The notes under the pieces: model-generated | Seen by the model: the letters and a program-made list of their open reading frames with translations, nothing else | Database searches by the model: none | Told to the model about the DNA's origin: nothing | Position numbers and translations under genes: made by a program | NCBI GenBank assembly: GCA_961205875.1 | Contig: OY540812.1 | Location: forward strand, 8,680,001-8,744,000 | Reading direction: 5' to 3' | Length of the DNA stretch: 64,000 nucleotides | Source: Sialis fuliginosa | Taxonomy: Eukaryota > Arthropoda > Insecta > Megaloptera > Sialidae | Part shown: positions 3,137 to 64,000 of the stretch, one piece after another | How the letters are laid out: every line of letters begins with the position of its first letter | Numbering within the stretch: position 1 is the first letter of the stretch

Positions 3137-4204
3137 AACAATATATTTTTACAATATACTTATTTACGATAATTTTAAGCATAAAAAAAGTTTTAATACC
3201 CATATAAAAGTTCATATTTTCCATTTCTAGTATCCGTCTAAATGTTATTTTTTGTAGCGAAGGCATGTTTTCATATAACTTTATCAATTCTACTGTGAAA
3301 AATATATTTTACACACGATATGTGCTCTAGTGTTTCTGCGTCGAGACTTTTTTCACTCCTCGATTTTATTATTTTATTAAAAATTTATTACAAAATTAAT
3401 TAATTTATATATTAATAAGACGAAAAAGAATATTATCGCACACGTTTGCAAAAGTAGAACTTTACTCTCACATTTCAGGTTGCAGGAAAATATTCATTTA
3501 TTATTAAAAAAACGTGAAAAATTCGCTATCAAATTTATTTTCAATTTATTGAAAAATAGTTTTATAAACGGCGCTACTGACGGTTCTATATATTACGTAC
3601 ACATGTAAGTAGAGTTCATTTGTTTTAGTATTCAAATTCGATCGTATCTTCTGCTTCATCATTCATCGCTGTGTGAGTTATTAGAGTGTTTTTATTTTAT
3701 AGCTAGAACTCAAACGAAACTTATGGATATATATTATTTCCTATTTTGCTATCATTTTTAGCATCTCATTCTGAGAACACATATCACTACCGGGATTTGT
3801 AAAGAAATATTGTTTAAAAGATTAAACATCTTTGTAATACTCAATAAATCTTGATGTACTGTAAAAATATATAATGTAATATAAATAATCGGTTTGTAGG
3901 TACAGGCTTACAATAATATTGCAAACTGTATTAATTATGCGAAAGCGAATAGACGTCAGAGTGTTCCACAAATAGGACATCAGATTATTAATTATAATTA
4001 TCATCATCATTACAGTCTATATCTCATCCGCCCCAGGATGTGAGTCTTGCCCTTCCAACGAGCTTTGTTATACGTAATTTGCGAATTTAATTTATTATAT
4101 ACAAATATATACATGTATGCCTATATATTATTCAAAATAATATAAATTATGATACTACATAGACACATAGTATGTTTTTTATTTTTTTTTATTATAAGCA
4201 GGTA
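3137..4204. other. AT-rich DNA, no gene seen
   Basis: Mostly AT-rich. A slightly more complex patch at 3560-3760 (GGCGCTACTGACGG, TCGATCGTATCTTCTGC) has no open frame. No feature is supported. Confidence 0.4.
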
Positions 4205-4697
4205 AGGTACTGGCACCAGTTATGGCCGCTATAAGAGCAAGGTTTACTGTTTTTGTGATTGACGGGTTTCTTTTTTGTAATTTTCATGAACTCATGTTAC
4301 TAATAAAACAAGCAACCTTAATTTATTATCAAAGTCCGCAAATATAGTTTTTTTTTAATTATAGCCTTTTACTTTGTTTATGTTTTTTTCTCCAGTAATG
4401 GATAAAGTAAAACCAGTAATGAGCACGCAGTTATGGATACTTGCTAATGATTACAAAATGATAAGTACTACGACACAAAATATCGTTTTTATAAGCAGTT
4501 GCTATGATAATATAATAATTAATTAATAAATTATATTTTATATATTGTCATCAAATCACGCTGTAAGACAGTTAAATGTATATAGATTAATATTCAGAAA
4601 TGGTAGTAATCAAAAATCAACAAAGATTTCTAATTCAGTACATTAAATAAAAAAATAGCCATTGCTGGGGTCATATCCAAGACTGGTGCCAGTACTT
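4205..4697. mobile_element. TA-flanked non-autonomous element, family 1 copy A
   Basis: The 493-bp element is flanked by TA on both sides (4203-4204 and 4698-4699). Its inverted ends are AGGTACTGGCACCAGT and, on the opposite strand at the right end, AAGTACTGGCACCAGT (15 of 16 matching). The interior (GGCCGCTATAAGAGCAAG, ATCAAATCACGCTGTAAGAC) is shared with the copy at 11186-11702. The same terminal sequence bounds the 68-bp element at 35432-35499. TA duplication with these ends suggests mobilisation by a Tc1/mariner-type or similar TA-targeting transposase. No transposase coding is visible. Confidence 0.75.
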
Positions 4698-4699
4698 TA

Positions 4700-5678
4700 T
4701 TTCAATATAACCACGGATTATAGGAAAATCAATACTATTGCAAATATAAGTAAATATTTGCCCTTATGTTAATATTATGAAAAATTCAAAAAAACTTTTT
4801 TCTTGTTAATGTTAAAGTTTTTGAAAATAAAAGTTAAATACTTGAATTTAAATCTTTAAACGTCAAATTCAATTAAATTGTAGAACAATCCAAAGCATTT
4901 TATTTCCTTTAATTTCAATAAACAAACTAAATTTAATCTAACCTTTCCTAGATAACTATAATAGAAAATACTTAATTCACACGATATGGAAATATGTAGG
5001 TACGAGTATATCATATGACCTGTAGATTTACATAGATTTTCTCATCTAAATATACTGCAGTACATAAATCCGATATATGATCAAATTCTCTCCTATAAAT
5101 TCTACTATATTGATTAAATATTAATAGAATTAAGGTGCTCCATAAAATAGTATACGCGCACCCATATTTTCCTTGTCTGCATAAAATCCTGTTATTTACT
5201 CATATACATATACATACATATACGCTATAAAATCTTTGAGGTTTTCACTGGCCGGTGCATCGTTGCACTACGCGCGCTTTGCATACAAATGTACACCAAC
5301 AGGGTAAATATTACCCTCTTTAATATAATACTGCCGCCATTTTGGCTGCAATTCACGAACTGCATATCTGTTACACAGTATATAAAAGTTACTTCTGTGT
5401 GCAAACTTTGTACACGTATGGGAAGGTTTAATTGTGTTATCAAAACTTGCATAAGTGAATTGTAGTTAACAACTTTGATTTGAGGGTTCTAACAAACATA
5501 TAAATATAATTAATGAAGTTTACATAAATTAGACTGAATCTCACAACAATAATAATATTTTGATTTCACCTTTCTTATATTTTCCTCTATATTAAAAAAA
5601 TATATAATTAAAGATAAATGTAAATGTTATTATCGGATAAATAAATAAACCTTTCCTGTTTAACAGATCGCTTTAATA
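4700..5678. other. AT-rich DNA with one GC-richer block
   Basis: The first 450 bases are plain AT-rich. From about 5140 to 5440 there is a more complex block (GCCGGTGCATCGTTGC, CTACGCGCGCTTTGC, CTGCCGCCATTTTGGC). It contains the near-palindrome AGGGTAAATATTACCCT at 5301-5317, with 7-bp perfect arms and a 3-base centre. It is not coding on either strand, and regulatory or conserved non-coding DNA is the likeliest reading. Confidence 0.35.
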
Positions 5679-7058
5679 CAGGCCTGACTAATCCAAATTG
5701 CTCCACGGGCCGCATAGATAACCTAAAATTATTCGAGGGCCGCACATAAATAATAACATAAGAAATAATTTCACTTTGGATTAAGTTAGGCGTGTGAGTA
5801 ATTTTTGCTCACGAATTGTATTTTTTTCTCACGTCCGATCACGCTCGTGACAAAATTTAATATATCATGCTATAAATTAACTTTTGTATGTATTCGAGTC
5901 GATATTTCTATAAAAAGTTGAAATTTTTCTATGAAATTTTTATGAAAAGTGAAATTAAAACCATGAAAATTGACTAAAAAATTTTGAGTTTTAGATTTCA
6001 TTAAAAGTACGTTTTTGTATAGAAAATGAAGAGAAAAGTTGAATTTTTCAACCCGCAGGTCTGTATTTCAATCCGTTTTCGAGATATGGCCTCTCAAAGT
6101 TTCAATTTTATCATTCATTTTGGAGAAAAATAGCTGTAACATTTGAACGCGTGTTTAAAATTGATTTTAGTTGACGAATTTGTAATCACCGTGTCAAAAT
6201 CTATATAATGACATGTAAAATACTTCGAAACTTGACAAAAAAAATTTCGCGAAAAATCGAAAAAATGTCGATTTCTGGCCAAATTTTTTTTGTCCGATTT
6301 TGAAGTGTTATATACGTCATTACATAGATTTTGACACTCTGATTTCAAATTCGTCAACTAAAATCAATTCAGACCACGTGTTCAAAAGTTACGGCTATTT
6401 TTCCCCAAAATTTTCAAAAAAACTGAAACTTTGAGGCCATATCTCAAACACGGTTTGAGATACAGACTTGCGGGTTGAAAATTTCAACTTTTCTCTTCAT
6501 TTTTTATACAAAAAACGTACTTTTAATGAAATCTAAAATTCGAAATTTTATAGTCATATTTCATCCTTTAAATTTCAACTTTCCATAGAAAAATCAATTT
6601 AAAGATAAGAAAATTAGACGGAACATCATAACTTACTTTATATAATAATAGTTTTTATTATATTTTAACTAATTTTTCTTTTAAATCACAGGTATTTAAA
6701 CATTAAAATGCGCGAATATCAAAAAAAGAAAATAGCTTACGTGACCCGAAAAATTCAAAAACCCGCACCCCCAGGTAACCTAAATTCAACGCCAATGCAC
6801 ACAAAATATAATATATTAAGAAAAATATGGCAATTACAACGAAAATTTTTAACAACTAAAAAATATTGAATACTAATAAATAAAACAATATTTTAAATGT
6901 TATTTTAAAGAAAATAATTGGAAAATAAAACTATTTTCAGGGATTTTAAATAACCCGATACTTAAAAAAACGTTATTAAATATAATTTGTTCAAATGGGC
7001 CGCACAAAAGAGCGCGGCGACCGCATGCGTTCCACGGGCCGCAATTTGGCCAGCCCTG
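5679..7058. mobile_element. non-autonomous hAT-type element with nested foldback
   Basis: The 1,380-bp element is flanked by an exact 8-bp target duplication, CTTTAATA (5671-5678 and 7059-7066). The left end reads CAGGCCTGACTAATCC and the right end, inverted, CAGGGCTGGCCAAATTG. This CAGG(G/C)CTG start with an 8-bp duplication is the hAT signature. Subterminal CCACGGGCCGC words occur in inverted orientation at both ends. No transposase frame exists. The interior is dominated by a long inverted repeat (5890-6620) that also sits inside the unrelated-looking hAT element at 27722-28541. Just left of it, TCACGCTCGTGACA-type sequence resembles the interior of 17573-18155, so this element looks assembled from pieces of several repeats. 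Confidence 0.9.
5890..6620. repeat. long foldback core inside the hAT element
   Basis: The two arms are inverted copies: GTCGATATTTCTAT, GATTTCATTAAAAGTACG, GAAAAGTTGAATTTTTCAACCCGC and TTGATTTTAGTTGACGAATT on the left recur reversed on the right, meeting near 6265 around TTTCGCGAAAAATCG. The second copy of this core is at 27807-28384, where part of the left arm is deleted. The RNA or single strand would form a hairpin hundreds of bases long. Confidence 0.85.
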
Positions 7059-8217: not shown

Positions 8218-8305
8218 ATGGGGTATTGCTATTTTGCCTAACAAAGGGGATGGAGGGGTTCAAAATCAACGAAAACGCGCTTACGTAATACTTGAATAGC
8301 CCCTA
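8218..8305 (-). repeat. dispersed repeat fragment
   Basis: Read on the minus strand this is AGGGGCTATTCAAGTATTACGT, then GTTTTGAACCCC-type wording and AAAATAGCAATACCCC. The theme of a GGGGC-TATTCAA start followed by ATTACGTAAG is, from general familiarity, widespread in insect interspersed repeats. Only one copy lies in the window and its ends cannot be defined, so the assignment is tentative. Confidence 0.3.
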
Positions 8306-10389: not shown

Positions 10390-11185
10390 ATTCATATATG
10401 ATTAATTGAATATGCTTTTACATAATTATTCAGTACAATTTTTTTTTGTTAATACAACGCATCATAATAAATTTAAGAATTTTTTTTTTTTTAAATTATA
10501 GAAAACACCGTCATTAATACGAATATCCTAGTTTCGGACATAACATTAAATATGTTATCGTATCATAGTATTTGGATCTATTCTATTATGTATTTACATT
10601 ATTTTTATTTTAGCATACTAAAGTTTGTAATACATGACATTATTCCTACGTAAAATAAATAACACATCACAATTGAATATTTTGAACACGAACATAATAA
10701 CAATAAATCAAAATACTGCTAATTAAATTATAATAAAGAAAGCTAATCTATTTAAATACGAAATATTTGCGTATGTATCAGTTTCATATAAATTAATCAA
10801 CATTATAATTTTGCCATATAAATCATACAAATTGTTATCCTATTTTCATATAAATTAATTATTCCTAGTATACTTATTTCATTCTGCATGTTGCGTGCCA
10901 AACGTGAAACTACTGATACGCATGTTTCTGTTTATATAATGTCACTTAAATGATTATTAATCCTTTTATAGAAAACGGTTTCATCCATAATACATAATAC
11001 GACGATATCGTTGTGCCTACGTTGACGGAAATTTAATATCATCGTACAATATGAATAACATATATTTAATGTTTAATAAAATGGCATATCATATATGTTT
11101 AAGGGTATAAAACAAATACTTTATTTAAATTTTAACATGGCAAAATTCTCAGGTACTTATTATTAAATAGATTCTTACAACTAAG
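10390..11185. other. AT-rich DNA, no gene seen
   Basis: Plain AT-rich sequence with a poly-T run near 10482; nothing supported. Confidence 0.5.
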
Positions 11186-19802: not shown

Positions 19803-20629
19803 CATGCGAATAAAAAGAAAAGAACATATTCCAATTTCCTACTATCTTAACTATACAGTATTTCTGAAACTACTGACATAAGCAATCCATACTATAAAAG
19901 CTTCATGTGCGTCTAGAGATATAATACCCCGAGTCGAAAAATAAAACCTAGTTATATTTTTTAAATCCTAAATTCCTTTGTTGTTCGTTTAACTGCTTAA
20001 AAATGGAACGTGTTTTAATCTTATACATGTAATAAGAGAATCGATAGATGTTAAACGTGTTTTTGAAACTCGTCTATAACGCACAAACTCTATTTATGAC
20101 TATATATATATATACTTTTAAAATAAAATATTGTAAAAGCCAATCTGAAAATTTTTATAAACAATAATTAATCATTTACACTTTTTATTTAATGGCGAAG
20201 TGATTAAATTATATTTGAATATATAAAGCACAAAAAATTATAAAAATATTTATATAATATATTATTATCAGTAACACGTTTCTGGATTAAAATATATTAT
20301 GAAGGTAAATTCATTGATTTATTTATGAACTTATAACTTTATAAATAAGAAAACATATATTACCGATAATAATACATTTTACCTATAAAAAAAAAAACAT
20401 TTAAATGAGAGGTAAGTAATTAAATTGATTTAATAAAGAGGTACTTGTTTTCTTAGTAACAAGAGTTCACGAGAATTACAAAAAAAGAAGCTCATTAATT
20501 CCAAAAAACAGCATATCTCGTTCTTAAAGCAGTTAATATTGGTACCAGTACTTTATATTTATAATAAAATAAAATATTGCAAAAACAAATCTGATTTTTT
20601 TCATTACATATATCCAATATATTATGGTA
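19803..20629. other. AT-rich DNA, no gene seen
   Basis: AT-rich. At 20538-20556, TTGGTACCAGTACTTTATA resembles the right end of family 1 (4205-4697), but nothing of the body is present. Confidence 0.4.
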
Positions 20630-27721: not shown

Positions 27722-28541
27722 CAGTGGCGAAGCGACCATGAAGCAGAGGAAGCAGTGCTTTTAATATTAATTTACACGCTCAATTATAAAACTATAATAC
27801 CTCTACGTCTTATTTTCTTGTATTTTAGTCGATATTTGTATGACGAGTTGCTGGAAATTTCACTAAAAAATTTCGAATTTTTGATTTCGTTAAAAGTATG
27901 TTTATTGTATAGAAACTGGCCTGAAAAGTTGAAATTTTCAAACCGCAGGACTGTATCTCGAAGTTTCAGTTTTTTTTCAAAATTTTGAAAAAATTTCGCG
28001 AAAAAACGAAAAAATTCAAATAAAAAAATGTCGATTTTTGACGAAAATTTTTTTGTCTGATTTTAAAGTATTATACATGTCATTATATAGATTCTGACAC
28101 GCTGATTTCAAATCCGTCAACTAAAATCAATTCCGACCACGCGTTCAAAAGTTATGGCCTTTTTTCTCCAAAAATTTGAAAAAACTAAAACTTTGAGAGG
28201 CAATATCTCAAGAACGGTTTACGAAACTAAAAATGTGGTTTGAAAATTTCAACTTTTCACGCCATTTTCTATACAATAAACATACTTTTAACGAAATCAA
28301 AAATTTGAAATTTTTTAGTGAAATTTCCTGCAGTGAACTTCAACTCGTCATCCAAATATCGACTAAAATACAAGAAAATAAGACATAGAATCATTTAGTT
28401 ACTATATAAATATATAAGAATTTATTTTAAAAAGTAAAAACTTGATCTTAAGGTGTTTCATAACTAGTTTTTTTTGTTAATAGGAGGGGGAAGATTGACA
28501 AAATATGCTTCCCTTATTAAAAATTTCACGCCTCGCCACTG
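27722..28541. mobile_element. non-autonomous hAT-type element with the same foldback core
   Basis: The 820-bp element is flanked by GTCTGGAA (27714-27721) and GTCTAGAA (28542-28549), an 8-bp duplication with one difference. Ends: CAGTGGCGAAGCGACC on the left and CAGTGGCGAGGCGTGAA on the right read inverted. CAGTGGCG starts with 8-bp duplications are hAT-type. These ends differ from those of the element at 5679-7058, yet both carry the same inverted-repeat core. No transposase coding; the 103-codon frame here crosses the left end and the core and is incidental. Confidence 0.85.
27807..28384. repeat. foldback core, second copy
   Basis: Inverted arms start GTCTTATTTTCTTGTATTTT and end with its complement. 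Inside, AGTCGATATTTG, GATTTCGTTAAAAGTATG and GAAAAGTTGAAATTTTCAAACC recur inverted on the right. Compared with the copy at 5890-6620, the left arm lacks the segment corresponding to GTTCAAAAGTTATGG...GTCAACTAAAATC on the right. The arms are visibly better matched to each other than the two copies are. Confidence 0.85.
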
Positions 28542-35085: not shown

Positions 35086-35299
35086 CAGCTGAGCTACCTA
35101 ACCTTACTCGAGGTTTAGTGATATTTTGACTCAAAACTTTAATTTAATATTAAGAAGAAACGTTCTATTGATATATATGTACATAATAATATACATTAAA
35201 AACGTATATAACAAACGTGAACAAAATATACAATTTCAATATAATAAATTGTTTTAGTAAAATCATTGCTACATTATTTACAATAACGGGAGCAATACC
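35086..35299. other. AT-rich flank of the P-like element
   Basis: AT-rich. Ends with the target-like octamer GCAATACC at 35292-35299 that abuts the P-like element. Confidence 0.5.
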
Positions 35300-35320
35300 C
35301 ATGATACAAATATATAAAGA

Positions 35321-35614
35321 CACAGCATTTGGATTTAGTAACCTCTTGATGCCAGGATAATTCAAAAGAATATCTTTGAGTCGCCAGTCTTTGTCAGTAA
35401 AATGCAGAGAGCAAATTCTGCCTGACTTATAAGGTATTGGCACCAGTCTTAAACAAGAATCCAACACTGACGTGTGATCTAAGACTAGTGACAATACCTT
35501 ATTGATATTTTCAATCCCGCATGCTTTCAACCACAATTCACGCACTATTTTTGGGAAATGAAAAAAACGTAATGTTTTAGAATCCTTTGTCTTATTAAGA
35601 TAACTTTTCACCAT
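35321..35614 (-). pseudogene. THAP zinc-finger exon, disrupted
   Basis: From the ATG at 35614 the frame shows THAP hallmarks in order: FFHFPK at residues 17-22, tryptophan 28 in ELWLKACG, C68-x2-H71-F72 in GRICSLHF, and LNPNAV at 93-98 in the place of the family's AVPTIF-type end. The N-terminal C-x(2-4)-C pair is missing from this frame. A cysteine-bearing stretch (SCDVI, CRIRF) lies just upstream at about 35628-35650 in shifted frames, so the start has decayed. Residues 39-62 come from a 68-bp mini-element inserted inside the finger. Without those 24 residues the Trp-to-Cys spacing falls from 40 to 16, the normal THAP range. THAP fingers bind DNA in P-type transposases and in host factors. 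This copy lacks a complete zinc site and any catalytic domain. Confidence 0.7.
35432..35499. mobile_element. 68-bp mini-element of family 1 inside the THAP exon
   Basis: Ends AGGTATTGGCACCAGTCTTA and, inverted, AGGTATTGTCACTAGTCTTA (18 of 20), flanked by TA (35430-35431; 35500-35501). The first 18 bases match the right end of the family 1 element at 4205-4697. At 68 bp it is little more than two terminal repeats back to back. It adds a net 24 codons without a stop, joining the two halves of the THAP motif in one frame. Confidence 0.75.
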
Positions 35615-35820
35615 ATATCAAAGCGAATTCTACACAATAACATCACATGAGTTTTCCATCTGACACATAAAGTACTCGACGTGACGTCACAATAGTAGAT
35701 GTCATTTGTTTATCGAGCCCACCTATGAGCAATACCCATGATGGAAAGATATATTTGTATCATGAGCAGTACCTACAATTCTGTTATTCAAACGAATGAA
35801 AAAGTTTCAATCGTTTCCTT

Positions 35821-35934
35821 GGTTACCACTTACCATCATGTGCGAATCCAATATTTTTAATAAAGAGAGTTATGATGTTGAGGATGTCATTGCACGCCGT
35901 CTACCAATCAGAGGTGGCTAAACAAATAAGTTTT
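35821..35934 (+). repeat. dispersed repeat family 4, copy A
   Basis: TGTGCGAATCCAATATTTTTA, AGAGAGTTATGA, CACGCCGT and CCAATCAGAGG then ACAAATAAG. Colinear with 60352-60456 (GTGCGAACCCAATGATTTTA, AGAGAGTTATGACC, CACGCCGT, CCAATCAGAATT, ACAAATAAG). No coding. Confidence 0.6.
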
Positions 35935-60175: not shown

Positions 60176-60351
60176 GTTTGTTCTACATTCTACTTTAATG
60201 ATAGCTGTCTTTTTTTTTGTTCTTTGGGTTTAATTTTCTTGCAAACGAATATACATAGCGTTACATATATATTTTTGTAACTACGTAAATCTTAATACTT
60301 TATAATATTTTATATTTAATTCTTTAATTTAAACATGTTTCAGTTATTTTC
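60176..60351. other. AT-rich DNA, no gene seen
   Basis: AT-rich; nothing supported. Confidence 0.45.
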
Positions 60352-60456
60352 ATGGCTACCACCATATCGTGCGAACCCAATGATTTTAGTACAGAGAGTT
60401 ATGACCTGTCAGTTCACGCCGTTAGCCAATCAGAATTCGTTAGACAAATAAGTTGA
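60352..60456 (+). repeat. dispersed repeat family 4, copy B
   Basis: Colinear with 35821-35934, sharing TGCGAA(C/T)CCAAT, AGAGAGTTATGA, CACGCCGT, CCAATCAGA and ACAAATAAG. Same orientation, about 24.5 kb apart. Confidence 0.6.
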
Positions 60457-61424
60457 GACCGGGAGCCAGTAAAAGTAAATATGCCGTTATCACATATTTA
60501 AATAAGTTTTATATTAATTGATGGTAAAAGAGCATACAAACAAAGTAAGAGCGGTATGACGGCGCAAAGCATGCCGAAAAGGTGTTTACTGAAATTAATT
60601 ATTATTTAAAAAAAATATTTTTTACCTTTATCGCGTAATTGAATAAAATTTATAATACGTATAAAAGATGATATTCTCTTTCAGAAAAACTAGGTATGAC
60701 AAACCATCTCTTGCCGGAAGTGTCTGTCATATCTCTCGGAAGGGGGTGATAAATAACAGAAATTTAGCGTTATCGCGAAATCACACTTTTTTTTCAAAAA
60801 TATCTTGGTATGACAGGTTGAAAATTGGCGGAAATATCTGGCTCTTGGTGCCATTTTAATGAAACTTGGTGAAAATGTTAATCAGATAAAAATTAAGGAC
60901 ATATATTTTTATTCGTGCTTAATCTCAAGTTTAGGGCGTAACCCTTGAATATGACGGTAAATTTTGGTATTACAAGAGCTGTAAAATAACATAAATGTGG
61001 TACCCCCTAAAATTTTTAATTAGGATGTATAATAAACACCCCTCAACTTTTTCCAAAAATTATTATTTTTTCTTTCATAAATAAATAGATTGTAGTATTA
61101 TGAATACAATAATATAAAACTAGCTATTAGCTATTTCGCGGGGCAGGTTTTTTAAACATTAAGTTATCACTATACAGTAATATTCTATTTATTGTTTATT
61201 GTATTTAAAGATTAAATAATTTAATAATACAAACATAGTTTTTAGAATCACAAAATTTATAATTATGATAATCATGATGAATCAACGAAATATTAGTACA
61301 ATAAGTAATACAATATTTTATTATCATAACAGAATTCAAATATATGCTATATAGAGACATTTTGAGACATGCCCTTTTAATTCATATATATTTAATCAAG
61401 ATAGATGACAAAATCTACACATCA
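60457..61424. other. AT-rich DNA with a repeat tail
   Basis: 60670-61060 is moderately complex (TCTTGCCGGAAGTGTC, GGAAGGGGGTGATAAAT, GGTACCCCCTAAAA) without a recognisable product; TCTGTCATATCTCTCGG and ATGACAGGTTG suggest a decayed repeat. TTAGCTATTTCGCGGGGC at about 61126 matches 35945. The rest is AT-rich. Confidence 0.35.
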
Positions 61425-62795: not shown

Positions 62796-63296
62796 GACAA
62801 AGACATGAAACCCAAAGGTATATGCATTGTTTTTTTTATATAATAAAAACCTAGTTTTAATACTAATCACCGACAACATTAAACTGTCATTGAAAATATG
62901 TCTTATTAAAGAAACTATGAATTCTATGAAATTTTTTATATCCTGTATTTTAGAGTTTCTGTAAGTAGGTGTTAATATAGTTTTTTCCCAAATATAAAAA
63001 TTATATAAGCAGTAACAGCGTTAGTAAAACATTTATGATATTACAAACCAGTTCTACGCAAGACCTATTTTTATATAAAAAACATCTGCCAAGTAAATGC
63101 ACAGTGCTTCCTCGTGCTAAATTCACTAAAACCGATAGTGTTCAGATAAATTGCCTGGCATTGGTTAACCATTTAATTTTTATACATATTTTACTAAAAA
63201 ATCTTAGTTCGAATTTTTTCTTAAAACGCACCTGAATATTTTTTCATATATTTTTAATTTTTTGACAATTTCAATCTAAATCTAAATTTATGCAAA
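62796..63296. other. AT-rich DNA, no gene seen
   Basis: AT-rich; the 66-codon frame at 63035 is not recognisable. Confidence 0.45.
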
Positions 63297-63374
63297 TGTC
63301 AAAATGACATTTAAAACGTCAAAGTGACATTTAAAACGCCAAAGAGACATTTAAAACGTCAAAATGACACTTAA
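63297..63374 (+). repeat. tandem repeat, 20-bp unit, about 4 copies
   Basis: The unit AACGTCAAAGTGACATTTAA is repeated in register with single-base variants (CGTCAAAG, CGCCAAAG, CGTCAAAA). Each unit contains a GTCA-TGAC inverted pair. Confidence 0.9.
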
Positions 63375-63738: not shown

Positions 63739-64000
63739 TTGTCTTGACGTGAAACGGATAAATAAATTTAAAATTTTGAAATTGGAGAACTTTTTTTTTG
63801 TCTCAATCTGAAACGATCACATAGCTTCTCGTATCTTCGATATTGCGAGGAAGCAAAATATTTCGTTTATTAAAAACATTTATTGCTTCCTCGCAATATC
63901 GAAGATACGAGAAGCTGTGTGATCGTTTCAGATTGAGACAAAAAAAAAGTTCTCCAATTTCAAAATTTTAAATTTATTTATCCGTTTCACGTCAAGACAA
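63739..64000. repeat. near-perfect inverted repeat running off the window
   Basis: Arms 63739-63856 and 63883-64000 are inverted copies with one difference over 118 positions (CACATAGCTTC against CACACAGCTTC). They are separated by 26 AT-rich bases (AATATTTCGTTTATTAAAAA...). The right arm is cut by the window edge, so the true arm is longer or ends there by chance. Confidence 0.95.

Follow-up and report, generated by a model that had tools for sequence, protein, structure and literature searches.

P elements make 8-bp target duplications, and their mobility needs longer ends than 17-21 bp. The Drosophila singed-weak arrangement is a double P insertion at one octamer, in which the two elements share one target repeat. 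THAP domains are found in further transposase families and in host genes as well. In its excerpted text, PMC7776569 describes the P transposase as cutting 17 bp inside the terminus and leaving long 3′ overhangs. For what follows such cuts, the excerpt of PMC2895639 reports that the end-joined excision sites of Rad51-deficient flies include ones that read octamer, terminus arm, short microhomology, terminus arm, octamer; the commonest junction that keeps the arms retains 30 bp (14 isolates), and just as many isolates (14) have a junction from which both arms are almost entirely gone. In wild-type flies most products of that assay, according to the same excerpt, arose by incomplete synthesis followed by end joining, an outcome which would yield a one-sided piece such as the one described below.

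The locus described here lies in a window of 64 kb (the whole stretch of DNA that was analysed), which is about 28% G+C throughout and gave no matches in Rfam and tRNA scans. The reading that we favour, with a confidence just short of even, is that of a dead P-type wreck at one target site, left by a double insertion and carrying an excision-repair scar. The features of the locus are collected in Table 1. In common with Drosophila P elements that have internal deletions and with the P-like deletion copies of zebrafish, both covered by the excerpt of PMC7776569, it has a THAP domain on the N-terminal side, inverted ends and direct flank repeats, and the catalytic part is missing. Unlike those copies, it has a 9-bp, mismatched flush repeat, a target that is repeated inside, an insert in the THAP exon and a 3′ end cut to 17-21 bp, and it is known here from one copy. 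With the P excision footprints excerpted from PMC2895639 it shares two terminal arms that meet at an AT microhomology and have a target repeat on either side, with a size of 28 bp as against 30 bp in the common Drosophila form in which the arms are kept; it departs from them in that the arms differ at 3 of 14 positions, a second, THAP-bearing piece adjoins, and the agent is putative. The P-MITEs of Anopheles gambiae (PMC1562414, as excerpted) are likewise short non-autonomous derivatives with P ends; they are multi-copy, with perfect 8-bp repeats and the ends of longer P elements, whereas a single copy is known here.

Table 1. Features of the THAP-bearing locus, in window coordinates
Feature	Position	Strand	Remarks
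Left flank repeat GAGCAATACC	35290..35299	+	Flush 9-mer AGCAATACC = 35291-35299; octamer GCAATACC = 35292-35299
Left terminus (3′ by THAP orientation), 17 bp CATGATACAAATATATA	35300..35316	+	14/17 agreement with 35737-35753
THAP-bearing piece X	35300..35727	-	Identical AGCAATACC on both sides; putative unit
Degraded THAP exon (PF05485)	35306..35614	-	Pfam match; C-x2-H kept, N-terminal cysteine pair missing
MITE-like insert in THAP exon	35429..35502		23-bp inverted ends
Middle flank repeat GAGCAATACC	35727..35736	+	Same sequence as left flank repeat
28-bp near-palindrome CATGATGGAAAGATATATTTGTATCATG	35737..35764		Read as P-type excision footprint
Right arm CATGATACAAATATAT	35749..35764	-	Perfect inverted copy of 35300-35315
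Right flank repeat AGCAGTACC	35765..35773	+	1 mismatch against left and middle flank repeats

The initial annotation had taken the locus to be an internally deleted P-type element with 16-bp identical inverted ends starting CATGAT and near-identical 8-bp flanks. The ends are as described, CATGATACAAATATAT forming a perfect pair at 35300-35315 and 35749-35764. The near-identity of the flanks also holds, but the octamers lie flush on the left only and are one base off on the right. The sequences that do lie flush with the 16-bp ends are 9-mers with one mismatch, AGCAATACC (35291-35299) and AGCAGTACC (35765-35773), and a scan with flush 8-mers at ≤1 mismatch did not return this locus. Counted in this way, the flush repeats agree at 9 of 9 positions around X, and at 8 of 9 for the 16-bp ends as well as for the footprint; a 9-bp flush repeat is reducible to an 8-mer only by assuming an extra base (an extra T) at one end. 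Simulation of 30 windows of 64 kb with the dinucleotide make-up of the real one yielded no 16-bp inverted pair spaced within 3 kb whose flush 9-bp flanks agreed with ≤1 mismatch. The same scan of the real window gave five rows: three window-end artefacts in which the flank is cut off, one nested in the inverted repeat at 63739-64000, and this locus. Since inverted 16-mers give 221 rows in the real window, to which long inverted repeats contribute many, and 0.87 on average in the simulated ones, chance is underestimated by the simulation as far as the ends alone are concerned, and the simulation is a rough guide only. The inverted repeat at 63739-64000 has 123-bp arms that are 98% complementary, with 16 bp between them, and runs to the window end. 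No further copy of the 16-bp end was found in the 64-kb window, and CATGAT occurs in it 25 times, at 35300, 35737 and 35764 (minus strand) within the locus.

A feature absent from the initial annotation is a third copy of the flank, GAGCAATACC, which is followed by 17 bp of terminus and lies at 35727-35753, inside the claimed element. The stretches 35290-35316 and 35727-35753 are identical at 24 of 27 positions, made up of 10/10 in the flank and 14/17 in the terminus, and the likeness stops at the next base on either side. GAGCA[A/G]TACC is present in three copies, at 35290, 35727 and 35764. Outside the locus the 10-mer GAGCAATACC has no exact copy in the window, with one-mismatch forms at 8222 and 57860; an exact copy of the 9-mer AGCAATACC is found once, on the minus strand at 8222. 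A target repeat is not expected inside a cleanly inserted element, so at least one further event must have taken place here, unless the repeat is element sequence. The exception amounts to a rival explanation, in which the inner GAGCAATACC is a subterminal motif of the element family. The element would then be longer or have other boundaries, and it might belong to a superfamily other than P. The presence of the motif in three copies would suit this explanation, as would flush repeats of 9 bp rather than 8 bp, the lack of any catalytic domain seen in this copy and a likeness to the Drosophila terminus that is not significant; we nevertheless regard it as distinctly unlikely, the 10-mer being without an exact copy in the window beyond the locus and the 10+17 structure being one that fits P cutting.

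The order within 35727-35773 is target repeat, 28-bp near-palindrome, target repeat. In the near-palindrome 22 of the 28 positions equal its own reverse complement, and the 28 bp can be composed of 17 from the left terminus and 16 from the right, overlapping at ATATA. A scan for such structures (14-bp arms with ≤3 mismatches, length ≤60 bp, flush 9-bp flanks with ≥3 G+C at ≤1 mismatch, all settings chosen post hoc) gave one match in the real window, which is this locus, and one match in all over 25 simulated windows. Exact 16-mer direct repeats within 500 bp number 34 in the real window against a simulated mean of 0.43, the window being richer in repeats than the simulation; when at least 7 G+C were required, a threshold also set post hoc, a single one was left in the real window, at this locus, and none in 30 simulated windows. 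These counts bear on the explanation by chance, in which a fragment of a host gene, now a THAP pseudogene, happens to lie next to a short palindrome unrelated to it. The AT-richness of the window and its excess of inverted and direct repeats over the simulations speak for that explanation, but neither the ends with their flanks nor the G+C-rich direct repeat appeared in any of the 30 simulated windows, and we hold chance to be highly improbable.

The model of the initial annotation is a single element at 35300-35765 with 16-bp inverted ends, an 8-bp duplication and a simple internal deletion. Perfect inverted ends, near-identical flanks and a THAP start codon 150 bp from one end all agree with it. 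A single clean deletion derivative does not explain the copy of target flank and terminus at 35727-35753 nor the adjoining 28-bp near-palindrome, and its flush flanks are of 9 bp with a mismatch; we consider it improbable. What is kept from the earlier claim is the P-type ancestry and the junction of THAP exon and far end, and what is given up is the single insertion with a clean internal deletion. The structure calls, at the least, either for an excision followed by repair or for another insertion. The 16-bp pair that was taken for terminal inverted repeats is probably the end of the THAP piece together with one arm of the neighbouring footprint.

The THAP-type frame does begin 150 bp from 35764, with an ATG at 35614 on the minus strand, and, as had been proposed, its likeness to the THAP pattern breaks off directly behind LNPNAV, close to the left end. 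It is 149 aa long and reads past the left end to 35165. The frame matches Pfam PF05485 with an E value of 5.6e-7 and 30.7 bits against a cut-off of 23.9, over profile positions 12-83 of 87; its sole other Pfam match, GBV-C_env, is below its cut-off. C-x2-H is present, and the N-terminal cysteine pair, which we take to be that of the C2CH THAP finger, falls outside the open frame, the match starting at profile position 12. The frame presumably leaves the domain ahead of the conserved proline that follows AV. As judged from its sequence, the frame is homologous to the C2CH THAP finger but broken. The damage is of four kinds: the N-terminal cysteine pair is lacking, the domain is left early, no catalytic part follows, and the exon carries an insert. 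A working transposase cannot be made from this locus, which, given a 3′ end of 17-21 bp, was probably not mobile after the deletion either. Conservation of the zinc motif in Galileo is treated in the excerpted text of PMC3688188. Searches for relatives of the THAP peptide gave 22 pattern stretches in IMG/VR and 118 in GTDB contigs, none of them confirmed, in collections that may omit the window's own genome, and a PDB sequence search returned only a weak match to THAP11 (E 0.85).

Read from its 5′ side, X consists of a leader, the THAP coding sequence up to LNPNAV, 4 bases, and then 17 terminus bases, which recur at 35737 with 3 differences. Its right end, on the minus strand, is CATAGGTGGGCTCG, beside the middle repeat, and does not begin CATGAT. 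With a 5′ end that starts CATAGGTGGGCTCG, the outer terminus would have been lost there. We have placed the right boundary of X by the flank repeat alone, since the right end is no recognisable terminus. The leader between the right end of X and the THAP start contains a palindrome, TGACGTCA, at 35682-35689, which by eye is a possible promoter element.

From the structures set out above we infer P transposase as the agent, a double insertion and an order of events, as follows. A P-type element would first have inserted at GAGCARTACC. An element would have been excised by a transposase whose cuts leave some 17 nt of either terminus behind in the chromosome, and the two overhangs would have been joined at the AT-rich microhomology ATATA, giving the near-palindrome at 35737-35764 between target repeats. 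X (35300-35727), in the neighbouring left repeat, would probably be a second, head-to-head insertion sharing that repeat, the first-inserted element then having been lost by excision. X itself would be a repair product, in which the 5′ side (outer terminus lost, leader, THAP exon) was joined to only 17-21 bp of the 3′ terminus; such a one-sided structure is expected if gap repair after excision stopped early and the end was then joined to the other overhang. A MITE would have landed in the THAP exon at some point. The flanks of X are identical (10/10) and the outermost copy differs by 1 base, which fits the arrival of X after the first insertion. The sharing of a target repeat would be as in singed-weak, except that a footprint would stand here in place of one of the partners.

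For a 17-nt staggered cut the indications in the locus are indirect: the 27-bp repeat (10 + 17), the 28-bp joined arms and the 17-21 bp kept at the left end. Against the double insertion stand the 9-bp rather than 8-bp flush repeat, the differences between the near-palindrome arms (3/14), the lack of a second copy in the window, the unrecognisable right end of X, the poor scores of the ends against the Drosophila terminus and the many occurrences of CATGAT. The equal frequency of junctions that have lost their arms, the richness of the window in repeats and the presence of THAP domains in host genes also count against it. In its fullest form, that of an ancient head-to-head double P-type insertion in which one partner is a 28-bp footprint still showing the 17-nt staggered cut and the other an aborted gap-repair product, the proposal is possible, though doubtful. 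If true, it would be fossil evidence that the unusual 17-nt cleavage and the end joining described for Drosophila were at work in a further P lineage too.

The main rival of the double insertion has P-type cutting in common with it and dispenses with a second insertion. In this explanation there was one P-type element and one repair event, in which the left junction (terminus and target repeat) was copied onto the right-hand end as templated filler; a switch to the element on the sister chromatid would then have allowed the 5′ part to be copied through THAP, before a final join with the left overhang. The inverted ends, perfect over 16 bp, would remain a true pair, the inner flank would be a copy of the left junction, with which it shares the A at the variable base, and P breaks are known to carry templated insertions (PMC2895639, as excerpted). 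Two template switches would be needed, however, and the copied terminus differs at 3/17 while the copied flank is identical at 10/10. We judge this explanation unlikely.

The P-type character of the locus is called from structure; it is the best available reading and an unproven one. We prefer P-type ancestry because of the THAP domain at the 5′ side, the inverted ends, the short direct flanks and the 17-bp units at the ends. When a 31-nt Drosophila terminus was aligned with the window (the first 17 nt from the excerpt of PMC2895639), the four ends here scored 16-18 against 22-28 for the window's best 12 rows, so the likeness is not significant. The best of these rows, at 60981, does not start with CATGAT and was set aside. 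The inner 18 nt of the Drosophila terminus scored 16 with the right end of X; among the best 12 rows listed, 5 scored 18 and 6 others were tied with it. No catalytic domain (RNase H-like with a GTP-binding insertion) was found in this copy, and among 20 of the 53 other ORFs of at least 72 aa Pfam gave no transposase, the two matches lying far below cut-off. Exact motif searches in IMG/VR, with one match each, gave 23 contigs for the flank with CATGAT and 17 contigs for the 17-bp end, which we take as chance. In the literature on end sequences, P and THAP, footprints, CATGATG, double insertions, P elements of Hemiptera and Lepidoptera, and aborted repair, covered mostly at the level of titles, no published description of these ends was found.

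A paralogous empty site was sought at 60318-60454, a stretch whose BLAST core is similar to the right flank from 35777 onwards; with the left flank added the alignment score rose by little, from 61.5 to 66.0, which is no proof. The stretches 35777-35932, to the right of the locus, and 60318-60454 form a repeat whose core is 71% alike over 134 columns, and the likeness sets in three bases past the right flank repeat. As an element the locus is dead and of an ordinary kind that is already known. If it is P-type, it records the chemistry of cutting and repair (17-nt overhangs, microhomology joining and aborted gap repair) in its sequence, and a test for the flank repeat with the 17-bp unit would be applicable to other genomes and could speak to the age and generality of that chemistry.

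The insert in the THAP exon has inverted ends of 23 bp (35429-35451 and 35480-35502) that are 91% complementary. It measures 74 bp from end to end of the inverted ends, or 72 bp net with the repeated TA/TTAT counted once. With a net length of 72 bp the frame stays open across the insert, and the THAP domain match therefore spans it; the halves on either side match separately with E values of 0.0038 and 0.014, each below the cut-off alone. The ends of the insert resemble those of a repeat of about 500 bp at 4203-4700. A second long copy of this repeat starts at 11182 and is alike in blocks (78-92%) to about 11700; a search allowing up to 5 mismatches did not find the right inverted end of this second copy. 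The insert (35430) and the 4203-4700 copy are both compatible with TA repeats, and the insert with TTAT too. The insert may be a Tc1/mariner-like MITE, a class with inverted ends and a TA duplication. The repeat family with ends like TAAGGTAYTGGCACCAGT comprises the two long copies, one further end at 20538-20555 (minus strand) with 4 mismatches, and the miniature in the THAP exon. Elsewhere in the window, complex inverted-repeat blocks at 5944-6629 and 27849-28394 are related, being 75-95% alike between and within both places, and a tandem array at 63294-63374 is made up of about four 20-bp units of AAACGTCAAAATGACATTTA.
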